Positions 18,153 to 25,124 of a stretch of 38,543 bases of DNA are shown here, piece by piece. The notes under the pieces are model-generated. The model was not told the origin of the DNA and ran no database searches. It saw only the letters and a list, made by a program, of their open reading frames with translations. Every line of letters begins with the position of its first letter. The first letter of the stretch is position 1. A program made the translations under genes and the position numbers. The DNA is taken from the NCBI GenBank assembly GCA_015058875.1, contig SVBN01000026.1, forward strand, positions 1 to 38,543, read 5' to 3'. Source of the stretch: Erysipelotrichaceae bacterium (GTDB taxonomy: Bacteria > Bacillota_I > Bacilli_A > Erysipelotrichales > Erysipelotrichaceae).

Positions 18153-19559
18153 TTAACTGACTGTTTCCGTCAGATTTCTGACCCAGACCAGTTTATGGAC
18201 AAGATACAGACCGAGGATCATCTTCGGAATATCGCTTGCCTGTACCGCCAGATACATCAGGACCGTATTCACACCGGTAAATCTGGACAGAAAGAATGCC
18301 AGCGGGAAATTGATGCATACGGTGTAAAAGCTGTCCATCAGCATCGTAATGACCGTTCTGCCGCCGCTGCGCATTGTAAAATAGCAGGCGTTGTACATGG
18401 TGAATACCGGCTGGAACAATGCCGTGATCTTCAGCAGCCGTTCCGCCGTCTGCCTGACCTCTTCCCCCGTGTTGTACATCCGCGGAAACAGCGGTGCGCT
18501 GAGATACAGCATTGCCAGGATAACAAATGATACTGCCAGTGCCATGGCAATCATCTTCCTGTCCAGATCCACCGCTTCCTCTGTTTTCCCGGCGCCGAGC
18601 TTCTGCCCGACCAGGATGGAAATGGAGATGCCCATTGCCATGCCGGCAATCATAAACACATTCTGAATCGTGCTGTTGATATTCATCGCCGCAACAGCAT
18701 TCAGTCCGCGGGTGGAATAGCATTGGGTAATTGCAGCCATTCCGACCGACCAGAGCACTTCATTGAGCATGAGCGGAGCTCCCCGCAGCAGAATGGACCT
18801 GACCAGGGAGGCCGGAACCCGCATTGTGCTGTAGAGGCCGTCCAGAAACAGAAATCTGTCTTTCCGCCGATATGATCCGTAAACCATCACCGCAAGTTCG
18901 ATTACTCTGGAAAGAACCGTGGCCGCAGCAGCACCGCGGATGCCCATCCTCGGGAAACCGAAATGACCGAAGATCAGCAGATAGTTGAAGCAGAGATTGA
19001 CCAGGACAGCGCAGATGCTTGCCCGCATCGGCAGAATCGTTTCGCCGGTCTCACGGACGGTGGAGGAATATACCTGCGTCAGGGCGAACAGCGGCAGTGT
19101 CCAGAGCATAATATGCAGATATGACAGCGCATAGCCCAGCGTATCAGCCGCATCCGCAGCGGAATTTGCCTGTGAATTCAGAAACAGCCCGACCAGATGC
19201 TTTCCGCCCAGGCCGAATACCAGCAGCCATCCCAGCGCCGCAAAGCCGGCCGCATAAAACTTAAAGCGCATGGTATTGCGGTGACCTTCCGCATCGCCCT
19301 TTCCGAAAAACTGCGCACCGAAAATGCCGGCCGCGTTGACTGCGCCGAAGATGGTGATATTGAAAATCATCAGAAGCTGATTGGTGATGGATACGCCGCT
19401 CATCGGCAGCGTTCCGACCTGGCCGACCATGATATTGTCCAGCATATTCACAAACGATGTGATGCCGTTCTGTATCATAATCGGAATCGTGACCGCCATG
19501 ACATTCTGATAAAACACGCGGTCACCGATATATCGTTTACGAATTGCTTCAACTGTCAT
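18153..19559 (-). CDS. MATE family efflux transporter
   Basis: The 468-residue, 12-helix MATE protein is paralogous to the one at 1559-2941; both begin with a YIGDR.FY motif before helix 1. Family features are IPIMIQNGITSFVNMLDNIM in helix 1, AAGIFGAQFFGKGD after helix 2 and SILVGQKLGAGKTEEA in the second half. It probably exports a drug or metabolite by ion antiport. GGGAG lies 6 bases before the ATG. It is downstream of the heterodimeric ABC exporter genes, separated by a 46-base gap with a long hairpin, so read-through may be partial. Confidence 0.9.
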   Translation of the reverse strand: MTVEAIRKRYIGDRVFYQNVMAVTIPIMIQNGITSFVNMLDNIMVGQVGTLPMSGVSITNQLLMIFNITIFGAVNAAGIFGAQFFGKGDAEGHRNTMRFKFYAAGFAALGWLLVFGLGGKHLVGLFLNSQANSAADAADTLGYALSYLHIMLWTLPLFALTQVYSSTVRETGETILPMRASICAVLVNLCFNYLLIFGHFGFPRMGIRGAAAATVLSRVIELAVMVYGSYRRKDRFLFLDGLYSTMRVPASLVRSILLRGAPLMLNEVLWSVGMAAITQCYSTRGLNAVAAMNINSTIQNVFMIAGMAMGISISILVGQKLGAGKTEEAVDLDRKMIAMALAVSFVILAMLYLSAPLFPRMYNTGEEVRQTAERLLKITALFQPVFTMYNACYFTMRSGGRTVITMLMDSFYTVCINFPLAFFLSRFTGVNTVLMYLAVQASDIPKMILGLYLVHKLVWVRNLTETVS

Positions 19560-19570
19560 ATTTCACTCCC

Positions 19571-19610
19571 GAAAACAAAGATATGAGATACTGTGACTCA
19601 GCATCTCATA
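19571..19610 (-). terminator. Hairpin with imperfect T tract between ABC exporter and MATE genes
   Basis: TATGAGAT and ATCTCATA (8 bp) flank a 13-base loop. The following tract is TCTTTGTTTTC on the minus strand. It probably causes partial termination or marks the 3' end of the exporter message. Confidence 0.55.
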
Positions 19611-21414
19611 CCATATCCGCAGCCATTTCTTCAAACTGCCTTGTATAAAGACTGTAGTAATACCCTTTCCTGCGCATCAGCTCGCGGTGTTTACCGCACT
19701 CCACGATCTTTCCGTCGCGGACCACCAGAATCACATCCGCATTGGTGATCGTGGAAAGACGATGGGCAATCACAAAGGAAGTTCTTCCTTTGATCACAAC
19801 GGAAATCGCATCCTGAATCGCCTTTTCCGTCAAAGTATCAATCGAAGCGGTCGCTTCATCCAGCACCAGAATACGCGGATCCGCAATAATAGCTCTTGCA
19901 AAGGAAAGCAGCTGTTTTTCACCGGTGGAAAGCATGTCGCCGCCTTCACCGACTTCACTGTCCAGTCCTTTGTCCATCTTGTCAATGACAAAGTCTGCGG
20001 AAACCAGCTTCAGCGCCTTCATGATCTCTTCATCCGTCGCATCCGGCTTGCCGTACCGCAGATTGTCACGTACGGTTCCGGAGAACAGATGCGGGGTCTG
20101 CAGCACATACCCGATATTGCTGTGGAGCCAGAGCTGGGAGCGTTCCCGTGCATCTTTTCCATCGATCAGCACCTGTCCTTCCGTCGGTTCATAGAAACGG
20201 CAGACCAGATTGACAAGCGTTGATTTGCCGGCACCGGTCTCACCGACAATCGCAACATTGGTTCCCTGAGGCACCTGCAGATTAAAGTGTTCCAGAACCA
20301 TTTCCGTCCCGTCGGGATAGCGGAAGCTGACATCACGGAATTCCACATCTCCGTACAGCTCTTCCCAGTTTTCTTTCTTCGGTTCAAATGCATCGCCGTA
20401 TTTTTCAATGACATCCGGACGGTCCGCTACATCGGATTCCGTTGCCAGAAGCTTTGTCAGACGTTCAATGTTGACCTGGATTGCAATCAGCGCCGAAATC
20501 GTTGCGATAATGCTCTGAATCGGTTCCATCATGCCCAGGGCATAGCTGACAAATACGGACAATGTGCCGATCCGCATCACGCCTTCCATCGTCAGATGTC
20601 CGCCCTGCCACAGAACAATCGCCAATGCCATGGAGCTCATCATTGTCACAGCTGCGGAAAACAGTGCCGAGTAATGCGTCGCATGGATTGAAGTACGCTT
20701 CATTTCGGCGGTGTCCTTCTGAAAATCGGAGAAGATTGTATCTTCGACAACCAGTGTCTTGATCGACCTTGCGCCGGTAATACCCTCATTGAAGTTGCCG
20801 GTAATCTTTGAGTTGATCTCACGGATCATCCGGTTCAGCTCAATCAGGTGTTTCTGGAACCAGCTGATCATCAGCACGGCCAGCGGAACAAGCACCATGA
20901 CGTACAGTGCCAGCCGCAGATTAATTCTCAGCATGACAATCAGAACACAGATGATGTAAGATCCGTTCCAGACGATATCCATCATCCGCCATGCAACAAG
21001 CTCACCGATCTTGCCGGTATCGCTCATGACTCTGGCATGGATATAGCCGACATTGTTCTGGTTGAAATAAGAGAAGGACAATGTCTGCAGGTGGTTGAAT
21101 GCCGCATTTCTGAGATCCCTGTCCACGGACATTTCAATCTTCCCGCACCAATAGGTGCTGATATAGTTGTCCATGACCTGAATCAGAAGAACAGATACAT
21201 ACAGCACAATGAAGAGCGGCATCGTATCCAGTGTTCCCAGGGCAATGAAATGATCGATTGCATAGCTGTTGAACAGCGGGAAAATGCTGTCGATCAGGCT
21301 GGACAGAATGCCCAGCAGAATTACTGTAATCAGTGTCTTCCGGTACGGCATGGCATAGGGAAGAATCTTCGGAATACCGAAGAGAGGCAGCGAGATGTTC
21401 TTATTCTCTTCCAT
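19606..21414 (-). CDS. ABC exporter half-transporter, catalytic-Glu subunit
   Basis: The 602-residue protein has an N-terminal six-helix ABC membrane domain (about residues 20-320) and a C-terminal nucleotide-binding domain. The latter has Walker A GETGAGKST, Q-loop YVLQTPHLF, Walker B ILVLDEATASID with the catalytic Glu, and H-loop IAHRLST. Its signature motif is degenerate (LSTGEKQ instead of LSGGQ). With the upstream partner it forms a heterodimer with one competent ATP site, as in TM287/288 or LmrCD. ATG 21414 overlaps the partner's stop as TGATG, so translation is coupled. The substrate is unknown; lipid or drug export is typical. Confidence 0.94.
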   Translation of the reverse strand: MEENKNISLPLFGIPKILPYAMPYRKTLITVILLGILSSLIDSIFPLFNSYAIDHFIALGTLDTMPLFIVLYVSVLLIQVMDNYISTYWCGKIEMSVDRDLRNAAFNHLQTLSFSYFNQNNVGYIHARVMSDTGKIGELVAWRMMDIVWNGSYIICVLIVMLRINLRLALYVMVLVPLAVLMISWFQKHLIELNRMIREINSKITGNFNEGITGARSIKTLVVEDTIFSDFQKDTAEMKRTSIHATHYSALFSAAVTMMSSMALAIVLWQGGHLTMEGVMRIGTLSVFVSYALGMMEPIQSIIATISALIAIQVNIERLTKLLATESDVADRPDVIEKYGDAFEPKKENWEELYGDVEFRDVSFRYPDGTEMVLEHFNLQVPQGTNVAIVGETGAGKSTLVNLVCRFYEPTEGQVLIDGKDARERSQLWLHSNIGYVLQTPHLFSGTVRDNLRYGKPDATDEEIMKALKLVSADFVIDKMDKGLDSEVGEGGDMLSTGEKQLLSFARAIIADPRILVLDEATASIDTLTEKAIQDAISVVIKGRTSFVIAHRLSTITNADVILVVRDGKIVECGKHRELMRRKGYYYSLYTRQFEEMAADMV

Positions 21415-23249
21415 CACTCCTGCACCTCCTCTTCCTGGGAAATCTGAAGATCATAGATCCTGCGGTAAGTTCCGCCGTTTGCCAGCAGTTCTTCATGTGT
21501 TCCGCGCTCCGTAATCTTTCCATGATCCAGCACAATAATCTGATCCGCATTCATCAGTGTGGTGATGCGGTGGGCAATCAGGATCACCGTGGAATCACCG
21601 GCCGCCTCATGCAGTGCATGGCGGATCTTCGCGTCGGTTTCCGCATCCACTGCGGAAAGAGAGTCATCAAAAACCATCACCGGCGGTTTCCTTATCAGCA
21701 TCTGCGCAATTGCCGTACGCTGTTTCTGTCCGCCGGAAAGCGTAACGCCGCGTTCTCCGACAAAGGTGTCATATCCTTTGTCAAAGTGCTCGATTGTTTC
21801 ATCCAGACTTGCCAGTCTTGCGGCTTCACGGACTTCCGCCATATCCGCCGAGCTGCTGGCAATTTTAATATTCTCTTCCAGCGTTCTGGAAAACAGGAAC
21901 GGCTCCTGCAGAACCATGCCGATATTGGAGCGCACCCATTCCGCCTTCATATCGGCGATATTCACGCCGCCGACTGTAATCTTTCCGCTTCCTTCCGGAA
22001 GATCATAGAGACGGTCCAGCAGATACATCAGCGTCGACTTGCCCGATCCGGTTCCGCCGAGGATACCGAAAGTTGTCCCCTGCGGCACGGTGAAGCTGAC
22101 ATCTTCCAGCACTTCCGCGCTGCCGTTTTCATACTGATAGGAAACATGGTCGAATACGATATCACCGTGGAAATCCGGCGTCAATGCCGCGGGCCTGTCA
22201 TGTTCCACATCGGAATTCATGATGTAACGCAGACGCTCAATGGAAATCGCCGCCTTGGACATCTGGGAGATGACTCTTCCCAGCGATCTGACCGGCCACG
22301 TCAGCATCAGATTGTAGGAAACAAACGACAGATAGTTTCCTGCCGTCAGTTCCCCGTGCACGCACAGATACGATCCGAATACGGTAATCGTCAGGATCTG
22401 CAGTCCCGAAAACAGATCGCCGGTTCCCCAGAACTGCGACAGCACGCGCATCAGTTCAATCCACATCTTTGTATAGCTAACATTCTGCTTTTCAAAGCGC
22501 TGACGTTCATACTTCTCACGTCCGAATGCACGGACCACGCGGACGCCGGTCAGGTTTTCCTGGGCGATCGAGGACAGCTTTCCCTCTTCGATATCCGCAT
22601 GCTCAAATGCATTTCCGATCCGCCGGTAAAACAGGAAGCTGTAGCCGACAATCACCGGAATAAAGCACAGCGCCGTAAAGGCAAGCTTTGTATTGATCAT
22701 GAACATGAACCAGACGGACATGACGATCAGAACAAGGATTCTGACCAGCGCCGTCATCTGTTCGGACAGAAACACCTTGATTGTTTCCACATCGGAGGTG
22801 CACCGCTGGATGATGTCTCCGGTCATATTCTCACTGTGCCAGGCAAACGGCAGATGAATGATATGGTCAAACAGCGTATCACGCATGCGCTGCACAAGCG
22901 TTTCGGCACCGCGGGAATTGCTGAGACGGAATTCATACCGGCAGAAAGCTCCGCACAATGCCACCAGAATCACCGCAAAGGCAATATAGGAAAGATGCTG
23001 TTTCAGAAACGGTGTTCCGCCGATCCCTTCAATCCAGCGGTTCACAAATGCCGGAAGCGATGATGCCTTGTTATCCAGCACGGAGTCTACGGTAAATCCC
23101 AGAATCTTCGGATTGATCAGATCAAGCAGGGAAACCAGGCACGCGAAAATCATGCTCGAAACAAAGAAGCGCTTCGAACCCTCCAGAAAATACATAATCA
23201 GTCCCATTCTGGTCGGGAATAATTCGGTTTTTGTTTTCTGTTCACTCAT
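21414..23249 (-). CDS. ABC exporter half-transporter, degenerate-site subunit
   Basis: The 611-residue partner of the preceding protein has six membrane helices (about residues 30-330) and a nucleotide-binding domain. It has Walker A GGTGSGKST and a canonical signature LSGGQKQR, but Walker B VMVFDDSLSAVD carries Asp in place of the catalytic Glu. This is the complementary pattern to its partner: the competent site combines this LSGGQ with the partner's Glu. The ATG has no Shine-Dalgarno sequence and lies seven bases after a good -10 (TTTAAT with TGA before it), so it is probably read from a leaderless message. Read-through from the ABC-F gene upstream is also possible. Confidence 0.94.
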   Translation of the reverse strand: MSEQKTKTELFPTRMGLIMYFLEGSKRFFVSSMIFACLVSLLDLINPKILGFTVDSVLDNKASSLPAFVNRWIEGIGGTPFLKQHLSYIAFAVILVALCGAFCRYEFRLSNSRGAETLVQRMRDTLFDHIIHLPFAWHSENMTGDIIQRCTSDVETIKVFLSEQMTALVRILVLIVMSVWFMFMINTKLAFTALCFIPVIVGYSFLFYRRIGNAFEHADIEEGKLSSIAQENLTGVRVVRAFGREKYERQRFEKQNVSYTKMWIELMRVLSQFWGTGDLFSGLQILTITVFGSYLCVHGELTAGNYLSFVSYNLMLTWPVRSLGRVISQMSKAAISIERLRYIMNSDVEHDRPAALTPDFHGDIVFDHVSYQYENGSAEVLEDVSFTVPQGTTFGILGGTGSGKSTLMYLLDRLYDLPEGSGKITVGGVNIADMKAEWVRSNIGMVLQEPFLFSRTLEENIKIASSSADMAEVREAARLASLDETIEHFDKGYDTFVGERGVTLSGGQKQRTAIAQMLIRKPPVMVFDDSLSAVDAETDAKIRHALHEAAGDSTVILIAHRITTLMNADQIIVLDHGKITERGTHEELLANGGTYRRIYDLQISQEEEVQE

Positions 23250-23256
23250 AGCGTTA

Positions 23257-23286
23257 ATTAAATCACGGTTCCCTTCCGATTTACAA
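23257..23286 (-). promoter_or_regulatory. Promoter of the ABC exporter operon
   Basis: TTGTAA (23286-23281), an 18-base spacer and TTTAAT (23262-23257) preceded by TGA. The -35 contains the stop codon of the ABC-F gene. The predicted start is about 23250, at the ATG. Confidence 0.6.
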
Positions 23287-24837
23287 GATAGTGCCCATAC
23301 TTATTTCATGCAGACCTGTCTCATCCATGCGCAGAATGCGTTCACAGACTTCGCTGATATATTTCCTGTCATGCGAAACACTGATAATGCTCCCGGGAAA
23401 AGTCTTCAGGGCAGTGCGGATCACCGGTCCGGACAGCGGCGAGAAATTTCTTGTCGGCTCATCCAGAATCAGCACATTCGCTCCGGCAAGATTCATCTTC
23501 AGAAAGAACAGTTTCGCCTTCTGTCCGCCGGAAAGATCACATATCCTGTGATTCATCTCATCCGCCGTATATTTCATGGATCCGAGCCATGTCCGGATTT
23601 TCGTATATTCTTCCTTTTCCCGGCTGAAGGAAAGATAATCCGGAGGCGTCATCTGATCATACAGGAGATCATCATAGTTCTGCGGCATATAAAACGCCCT
23701 CAGATCCTTTCTTGCCGTCAGTTCTTCCGCTATCATTTTCAGCAGCGTGCTCTTGCCGCAGCCGTTTTTTCCGATAATGCAGATCTTTTCCGGTCCCCTG
23801 ACATTCAGAGCAATATTCTCCGAAAGTATTCGTGTTCCGTCGGGACACATGATCTTTTCCTTCTGCAAATCCAGCACTGTTTTGCCCTCAGGCATATAAG
23901 AACGCTCCGGATCAAAGCGGATCAGAATCGCCGTTTCTGTCTCCGGTTTCTCCGCAATATCCTCTTTCTCACGTTCAAACCGGCGTTCCATTGACTTCAC
24001 TGCCTTCATCTTTTTCTTCAGCAATGCGCCGCCATGGGGATCCTGCCTGGAAATAGTTGTCTGATCGTGTTCCACCTTCTGTTCGATTCTGCGCAGCTTT
24101 TCCTCCCTGATTTTCTGTCTGCGGCGCTGCTGGTATGCCAGATCCTCCTGGTTCTGCATCTGTGCATTCCGGTGTCTGACATATTCCCCATAGGTCATAT
24201 GCCTGACAGAATGACGGCTCTGCATCTTTCTGCGGATCTGTTCCAGATGAATGATCATATTTGCGGCATGTTCAATCAGAACTTCATCGTGCGAGATGAA
24301 CAGCACGGTTTCCCGGCATCCGCAGATGAAATCCTCCAGCCATTGCAGTGTTTCAATATCGAGATCATTGGACGGCTCATCCAGAAGATATACCGTCGGC
24401 TGACGCATCATAATACGCATCAGCTGCGCCTTGATCTTTTCTCCTCCGGACAGGGTTTCCATTTTCTGATCCGAGAAGAAGAATTCCGGAGCAAGGGAGA
24501 AATCCGCCGCAAGCCTGCCCAGCTCAGCCGGCGTCTGTTCCGGGAATCTTTCTTCTTCCGAAAAGAATTCCCATATACTTCTGTTTTTATCTTCCTCCGG
24601 AAGCTGCTGGGGCAGATAGCCGAACACTTCTTTCCCGATGTGCATTTCCCCCTGTACATCCATATAATCACTGACGGATTCCGGATCGAAGATCCATTTC
24701 AGCAGTGTGCTTTTTCCGTTGCCTTCTTCCCCGATGATGACCGCCCTGTCTCCGGGATTGAGCACCATGGAAAAATCTTCCAGAATCACCCGGGAGTCCT
24801 GTATGTGCGTCAGTTTCAGATTTCTGATTTCAAGCAT
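23281..24837 (-). CDS. ABC-F family ribosomal protection-type ATPase
   Basis: The 518-residue soluble protein carries two ABC ATPase domains and no membrane helices. Domain 1 has GEEGNGKSTL, LSGGEKIKAQLM and LLDEPSNDLD; domain 2 has GKNGCGKSTL, LSGGQKAKLFFLK and LILDEPTRNFSP. They are joined by a long charged, Arg/Lys/Glu-rich helical linker (about residues 200-310), the part that enters the ribosomal E site. Antibiotic-resistance ABC-F proteins rescue ribosomes blocked by macrolides, lincosamides, pleuromutilins or streptogramins; others are housekeeping. ATG 24837 has AAGGAG 5 bases upstream. The leader with a terminator and mini-ORFs favours a drug-induced resistance type. Confidence 0.92.
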   Translation of the reverse strand: MLEIRNLKLTHIQDSRVILEDFSMVLNPGDRAVIIGEEGNGKSTLLKWIFDPESVSDYMDVQGEMHIGKEVFGYLPQQLPEEDKNRSIWEFFSEEERFPEQTPAELGRLAADFSLAPEFFFSDQKMETLSGGEKIKAQLMRIMMRQPTVYLLDEPSNDLDIETLQWLEDFICGCRETVLFISHDEVLIEHAANMIIHLEQIRRKMQSRHSVRHMTYGEYVRHRNAQMQNQEDLAYQQRRRQKIREEKLRRIEQKVEHDQTTISRQDPHGGALLKKKMKAVKSMERRFEREKEDIAEKPETETAILIRFDPERSYMPEGKTVLDLQKEKIMCPDGTRILSENIALNVRGPEKICIIGKNGCGKSTLLKMIAEELTARKDLRAFYMPQNYDDLLYDQMTPPDYLSFSREKEEYTKIRTWLGSMKYTADEMNHRICDLSGGQKAKLFFLKMNLAGANVLILDEPTRNFSPLSGPVIRTALKTFPGSIISVSHDRKYISEVCERILRMDETGLHEISMGTIL

Positions 24838-24858
24838 ATATACTCCTTTCCGCCATGC

Positions 24859-24886
24859 AAAAATCCGCCCCATGCCGGAGCGGACT
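24859..24886 (-). promoter_or_regulatory. Leader terminator (attenuator) of the ABC-F gene
   Basis: AGTCCGCTCC, the loop GGCAT and GGGGCGGATT form a 10-bp stem with two G-T pairs, followed by five Ts. It lies 10 bases before AAGGAG and 22 before the ATG, so termination here would prevent expression. A segment GGATCGGAT (minus strand, 24956-24948) can pair with the left arm at 8 of 9 positions as an antiterminator. Confidence 0.7.
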
Positions 24887-24995
24887 GCACATACCGAAAA
24901 GAAGCTGTTTGACACATGAAAATATCAGTTTCGAGACGAATACGGCAATCCGATCCGGTACATACAAACAGACCTCTGCAGGCCATAACTTCTTT

Positions 24996-25032
24996 TTATC
25001 TGTATTTCCGAATCAAATTACGCATTCTTCAT
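24996..25032 (-). other. Two candidate leader peptides upstream of the ABC-F gene
   Basis: MKNA followed by a stop (25032-25018) is preceded at 5 bases by AGGTG. MRNLIRKYR followed by a stop (25025-24996) overlaps it in another frame. Short basic leader ORFs of this kind couple ribosome stalling to antitermination in several ABC-F resistance genes. Translation is not proven. Confidence 0.45.
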
Positions 25033-25099
25033 TTCTTCACCTGTCACACATTCATGTGTCCTGATTCATATGTATCACAGGATAGTGTCTCCTGCAAGC

Positions 25100-25124
25100 A
25101 AAACAGCATGCCCGGGCATGCTGT
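25100..25124 (-). terminator. Terminator of the MFS gene (22-bp perfect palindrome)
   Basis: A 22-base perfect palindrome at 25103-25124 (ACAGCATGC arms around CCGG) is followed on the minus strand by four Ts. It lies 11 bases after the MFS stop codon. Confidence 0.75.

Follow-up and report, generated by a model that had tools for sequence, protein, structure and literature searches.

The leader of vmlR in Bacillus subtilis combines an upstream open reading frame (uORF) coding for MIN with anti-antiterminator, antiterminator and terminator structures and with a stem that sequesters the Shine-Dalgarno (SD) sequence (PMC9226507). The cplR leader of Clostridioides difficile has a uORF of the form MR[I/M], and its terminator hides the SD; the same study gives MK[L/Q] for the VmlR2 uORF and MAGN for the LsaA uORF, and names Lmo0919/VgaL together with CplR in an alignment of uORF and anti-SD sequences (PMC10201436).

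Here we describe the leader of an ABC-F gene from an Erysipelotrichaceae bacterium, located on contig SVBN01000026.1, of which a stretch of 38,543 nt is called the window below. All of the features discussed are on the reverse strand. The leader (24837-25080) is composed of two tiny ORFs, an intrinsic terminator and, upstream of it, a segment complementary to the left arm of that terminator. With a probability of about 0.83, we regard it as a ribosome-mediated transcription attenuator of the vmlR and cplR type, in which a second lock acts on translation.

Organization of the leader

Folding of the 253-nt leader yields -96.0 kcal/mol, as compared to -64.4 ± 4.6 kcal/mol for shuffled sequences (z -6.8), and none of 200 shuffles folded as well. 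The most stable fold is dominated by two large hairpins, one designated P1 and the other representing the terminator hairpin extended at its base. P1 (24938-25027), the putative anti-antiterminator, has 20 pairs and brings together the uORF region GAAUGCGUAAUUUGAUUCGG and CCGGAUCGGAUUGCCGUAUUC; its stability exceeds that of shuffled sequences with z -3.8 and p 0.005. The 5′ strand of P1 includes the uORF and the 3′ strand includes the candidate antiterminator segment, which would thus be hidden for as long as P1 stays closed.

A preliminary description of this locus, made from the sequence alone, had listed two tiny upstream ORFs, MKNA and MRNLIRKYR, and both are indeed present, at 25032-25018 and 25025-24996, respectively. 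The first of them, ATGAAGAATGCGTAA, extends from an ATG at 25032 to a stop codon ending at 25018, and is preceded by the SD sequence AGGTGA (25037-25042) at a spacing of 7 nt. Its position and SD register are those of the MKL, MKN and MRN uORFs found upstream of related genes, where the SD is mostly GTGAT or GAGGTGA, also with a spacing of 7 nt, and an identical MKNA uORF is present in two other leaders, L097 and L100. MKNA is therefore likely to be the functional uORF and the antibiotic-sensing site, as the window counterpart of the uORFs in relatives. The overlapping MRNLIRKYR is in another frame and has no SD at a usable distance. We rejected it as the main candidate for a sensing peptide, since the only SD lies 14 nt away and it is MKNA that occupies the SD register of the family. 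MRNLIRKYR is probably not translated independently, and may be translated by re-initiation or coupling from MKNA. No promoter of the leader could be assigned with confidence.

The terminator hairpin (24862-24886) has the structure AGUCCGCUCC-GGCAU-GGGGCGGAUU, with a stability of -16.3 kcal/mol, and is followed by a run of five T residues, placing the predicted transcript end at about 24859, 22 nt upstream of the ABC-F ATG at 24837. These features agree with the hairpin and T run reported in the preliminary description. A simple terminator scan did not list the hairpin, probably because the stem definition used absorbs part of the T run, and its existence was verified by folding. In a fold of the read-through RNA, the strand CUUCUUUUCGG (24894-24904) acts as an anti-SD by pairing with the ABC-F SD, GGAAAGGAG (24843-24851), which is thereby sequestered in the extended terminator stem; because of this pairing, read-through RNA would be translationally locked as well.

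The segment GGATCGGAT (24956-24948) can pair with the terminator left arm at 8 of 9 positions, as had been noted earlier, and the complementarity is in fact longer: the full antiterminator segment CCGGAUCGGAUUGC (24945-24958) lies in a duplex with UAUGUGCAGUCCGCUCCGG for which -28.4 kcal/mol was calculated. When only the interval from the uORF to the terminator is considered, the antiterminator duplex of the window has -17.1 kcal/mol, versus -10.2 ± 2.1 kcal/mol in shuffles (z -3.2, p 0.003).

Behavior of partial transcripts with a ribosome on the uORF

Equilibrium folds with the uORF blocked by a ribosome always gave the terminator, and for this reason the switch was computed from partition functions of growing (partial) transcripts, with a ribosome footprint blocking the uORF. 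With no ribosome present, the antiterminator segment is held in P1 (0.97), antiterminator pairing amounts to 0.00, and the left arm remains available for the terminator. With the footprint covering either codons 3-4 of MKNA or the opening codons of MRNLIRKYR, the antiterminator captures the left arm (0.83-0.90) as soon as this arm exists, and keeps it up to the point at which half of the right arm has been transcribed. Capture is also seen when the ribosome has reached the end of MRNLIRKYR (0.67-0.90), and one that covers just the MKNA start codon opens P1 only by half, with antiterminator pairing of 0.50-0.69. Once the full right arm has been made, the terminator is favored at equilibrium in every ribosome-blocked fold, so that antitermination would have to be kinetic. 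Attenuation is, in general, a kinetic mechanism. The earlier proposal that a ribosome stalled on a leader ORF favors antitermination is supported by the partial transcripts of the window and requires kinetic trapping.

The proposed sequence of events would be as follows. In the absence of drug, ribosomes would complete the four codons of MKNA and leave, P1 would close over the uORF and hide the antiterminator segment, the terminator would form, and transcription would end about 22 nt before the gene; in any RNA that is nevertheless read through, the SD of the gene would be hidden in the extended terminator stem. An antibiotic acting at the peptidyl transferase center would hold a ribosome on the uORF and prevent P1 from closing, and the 3′ strand of P1, once free, would pair with the terminator left arm while the right arm has yet to be transcribed, allowing the polymerase to read into the ABC-F gene, the product of which would probably remove the drug from ribosomes. 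The most likely inducer would be a lincosamide, a pleuromutilin or a streptogramin A, since most types of stalling that depend on the nascent chain would need a longer uORF than this one.

Conservation of leaders in related genomes

A DNA-level search of the 69 other genomes of the genus for leaders similar to that of the window returned only the window itself. Homologues of the ABC-F protein are present in 28 of 70 genus genomes at E values up to 1e-60, and in 112 of 272 family genomes at E values up to 1e-90. The leader sample consisted of the DNA upstream of 109 homologues, 108 of which had at least 300 nt available. Three of its members (L036, L037 and L040) are from records with other names and do not necessarily belong to the family, and two pairs (L020 and L038; L021 and L039) are duplicate contigs with identical sequence.

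We counted as uORFs those ORFs of 3-5 codons which have an SD match of at least 5 bases at a spacing of 5-9 nt and are located 45-215 nt upstream of the gene, and used shuffled leaders and neighboring genes as the background. By this definition, a uORF is found in 55 of the 108 leaders, as opposed to 2.35 ± 1.3 in shuffled leaders, with a maximum of 5 in 40 rounds; uORFs whose second codon specifies K, R or Y occur in 49 of the 108, versus 0.45 in shuffles. Among neighboring genes at the genus loci and in the window, such uORFs precede about 2 of 71, after L038 and L039, which are duplicate ABC-F records, were removed from the four hits and from the 73 genes. The peptides encoded in relatives include MKL, MRL, MKN, MRN, MKK, MKTA, MYRK, MYKHK and similar ones. 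This enrichment of SD-preceded ultra-short uORFs supports the attenuator type of leader that had been suggested for the window, as does the layout of uORF, hairpin and terminator which is shared, with differing sequences, by ten homologous leaders.

In these ten terminator-type leaders (L001, L012, L016, L020-L023, L033, L035 and L048), the terminator is found 19-25 nt upstream of the gene, and the interval between the uORF and the terminator folds significantly in each case, with the uORF placed in the P1 stem (mean z -4.2, every p ≤0.01). Eight of the terminator stems could be compared in register from the base, and their paired positions are occupied by several pair types (T-A, C-G and T-G; G-C, A-T and G-T). 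A MAFFT alignment of the terminator regions was discarded, as it misplaced the sequence of the window. The antiterminator complementarity is significant in the window and L016 and borderline in L012 and L021; against shuffles it is not significant in L020, L022, L023, L033, L035 and L048, and in L022, L023, L035 and L048 it does not rise above chance.

The uORF is missing in 9 of the approximately 27 genus homologues with upstream sequence, including the two closest ones, L009 and L032, with 60% and 57% identity, respectively. Both lack a leader and have a TATAAT only 7 nt before the start codon, which suggests that these two genes are leaderless and non-attenuated. Overall, the attenuator reading withstood all of the computations that were able to refute attenuation, and is supported by them.

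Two leaders from records named Lachnospira and Roseburia (L037 and L040), the ABC-F proteins of which are 53-54% identical, have different SD-preceded uORFs, reading MYRVTCEQ and MYRISCE; between uORF and gene lie a terminator-like hairpin and a T run. Eight other leaders (L064, L068, L071, L076, L086, L087, L091 and L094) carry uORFs of the MKN/MRN/MKK type, mostly without a convincing terminator. The near-identical uORFs MDRKSF and MDRNSF are found at position -54, with the SD TAAGG, in L119 and L122, which are from single-contig genomes in the family, and blocking of the uORF opens the SD in both (from 0.00 to 0.45 and from 0.00 to 0.42, respectively).

Translational control and other alternatives

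In family relatives that have no convincing terminator, among them L064, L068, L087 and L091, the uORF region is base-paired to the region of the main SD, and blocking of the uORF raises the accessibility of the main SD from 0.08 to 0.42 in L064, from 0.01 to 0.50 in L087 and from 0.03 to 0.58 in L091, which suggests that family members of this kind have switched to purely translational attenuation. By extension, the window leader might itself be mainly a translational attenuator, with the uORF governing access to the ABC-F SD and the terminator playing a secondary role. Such an interpretation would accommodate the complete burial of the SD in the extended terminator stem, and has a precedent in cplR, where induction needs stalling on the uORF and not premature termination (PMC10201436). 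We nevertheless hold it to be distinctly unlikely for the window, in which the SD of the full-length RNA is still buried in spite of a ribosome on the uORF, and in which a canonical terminator and a strong antiterminator favor a step at the level of transcription.

If the hairpin served merely to terminate or insulate against transcription from upstream, with the tiny ORFs being there by chance, the hairpin and its T run would suffice, and an MFS gene on the same strand is indeed located upstream. However, that gene is separated from the ABC-F leader by an intrinsic terminator of its own (25103-25124), consisting of ACAGCATGCCCGGGCATGCTGT with 9 pairs, followed by TTTGC; moreover, the 22 nt between the T run and the ATG leave no room for a promoter, and the uORF and P1 are conserved, all of which makes simple insulation very improbable. 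A ligand-binding riboswitch or a protein-binding leader in place of a ribosome sensor would account for a large and stable fold, but is held to be extremely improbable, because the leader belongs to no Rfam family at the gathering score, with weak matches at chance level, and because the conserved element consists of the SD and the uORF, while hairpin sequences vary freely. The ribosome-mediated transcription attenuator with a translational lock is thus retained as the preferred reading.

The ABC-F protein

The gene behind the leader (23281-24837) codes for an ABC-F ATPase of 518 aa with two nucleotide-binding domains, a helical linker and no transmembrane domain, i.e. with the layout of antibiotic-resistance ABC-F proteins; the structure model has a pLDDT of 90.9, with linker helices at 216-261 and 267-291. 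NCBIfam leaves its subfamily unassigned: the protein scores 352.9 bits with NF000355 (ribo_prot_ABC_F, ribosomal-protection-like ABC-F), missing the cut-off of 380, and 94-223 bits with the named resistance families Vga, CplR, Msr, Sal, Lsa and OptrA, which have cut-offs of 680 or more. Among solved relatives, the profile search placed VgaL/Lmo0919 first (E 1e-80), VmlR2 second and VmlR fourth, after Uup, and the top two Foldseek matches of the model are PoxtA and VmlR2. Since the protein falls below all curated cut-offs for ABC-F resistance, its role is one that we infer, mainly from the leader and additionally from the nearest solved relatives, which indicate that the product is probably an inducible resistance factor acting in ribosome protection, as had been predicted.

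A mobile resistance gene was considered and rejected, as plasmids gave no match at E 1e-60 and viral contigs gave none either; the plasmid ABC-F proteins listed at E 1e-15 are 24-34% identical to that of the window. This ABC-F lineage is common in one gut/rumen family, and would represent a probable intrinsic, drug-inducible ribosome-protection factor, although the protein of the window is left unassigned by curated resistance models.

Downstream transporters and hairpin P0

The ABC-F gene is followed, 31 nt after its stop codon, by a gene for an ABC exporter half-transporter (21414-23249), then by a second half-transporter gene (19606-21417) overlapping the first, and, after this exporter pair, by a MATE-family transporter gene (18153-19559). 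No terminator was found between the ABC-F and exporter genes, and none is obvious across 18153-23280, where gaps are short. Owing to these short gaps and the lack of an obvious terminator, the attenuator might control an operon that combines ribosome protection with efflux, comprising the ABC-F gene, the exporter pair and the MATE gene. This arrangement was not seen in the relatives from the genus.

A small hairpin, P0 (25046-25059; ACACAU-GA-AUGUGU), adjoins the ribosome-binding site of the uORF and is weak (-3.6 kcal/mol, p 0.018). Similar hairpins are located directly 5′ of the uORF SD in 12 leaders, namely that of the window and those of 11 relatives (L010, L011, L012, L014, L016, L017, L018, L023, L026, L027 and L048), in most of which P0 sits between AGAAAGG and GTGAT, with paired bases differing among genomes. 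The P0 intervals of the 12 leaders, which were picked by eye, sum up to -105.6 kcal/mol, versus -32 ± 6 kcal/mol for shuffled sequences. Because of this manner of selection, and because no excess stability is seen when a constant 48 nt 5′ of the uORF is folded (mean z -0.9), P0 is to be treated only as a lead, possibly pointing to a split and bridged ribosome-binding site of the uORF. The broader proposition that, within this genus, P0 splits this site (in relatives, AGAAAGG - hairpin - GTGAT - AGG - ATG) and makes initiation at the sensing uORF dependent on a looped-out and bridged SD, and that the window attenuator would also govern the exporter pair and the MATE pump, appears doubtful.

Comparison with known attenuators

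We found no description of ABC-F attenuators from the family of the window in the open-licence literature, which is weak evidence of novelty. The uORFs preceding the related genes encode peptides of three to five residues (MKL, MRL, MKN, MRN, MKNA, MYRK, MYKHK and others) and form a natural series in which terminator and SD-sequestering outputs are mixed, and which should be useful in relating uORF sequence to the range of inducing drugs and in following the interconversion of outputs.

The vmlR leader resembles that of the window in having an ultra-short uORF, with an SD of its own, inside an anti-antiterminator hairpin, as well as an antiterminator, an intrinsic terminator and a sequestered ABC-F SD. 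The two differ in the sequence of the uORF and in the ABC-F subfamily of the product; moreover, vmlR hides the SD in a separate stem, SL-4, while the extended terminator stem serves this purpose in the window, and the relatives of the window differ from vmlR in bearing P0 at the ribosome-binding site of the uORF. The cplR leader likewise has a 5′ hairpin holding the uORF, which in cplR codes for a tripeptide, and its terminator hairpin doubles as the sequestering element for the ABC-F SD. Its uORF reads MR[I/M], as compared to MKNA in the window and MKL, MRL, MKN and MRN in relatives, and the window protein scores 211 bits with the CplR model, which has a cut-off of 780. The MK[L/Q] consensus of the VmlR2 uORF overlaps the MKL found in genus relatives of the window, and VmlR2 itself is the second match in both the profile and the Foldseek searches, with about 26% identity in the structural alignment. 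Lmo0919/VgaL of Listeria monocytogenes is the best profile match of the window protein, yet the latter scores far below the cut-off of the Vga family.

The components characteristic of the vmlR/cplR type are all found here: a conserved uORF led by an SD, a P1 hairpin containing this uORF, a terminator between the uORF and the gene, and, in partial transcripts of the window, an antiterminator that is released when a ribosome occupies the uORF, with pairing rising from 0.00 to about 0.9. Overall, the window leader matches the known attenuators by every criterion that can be computed, and probably represents a type of switch that is already known.
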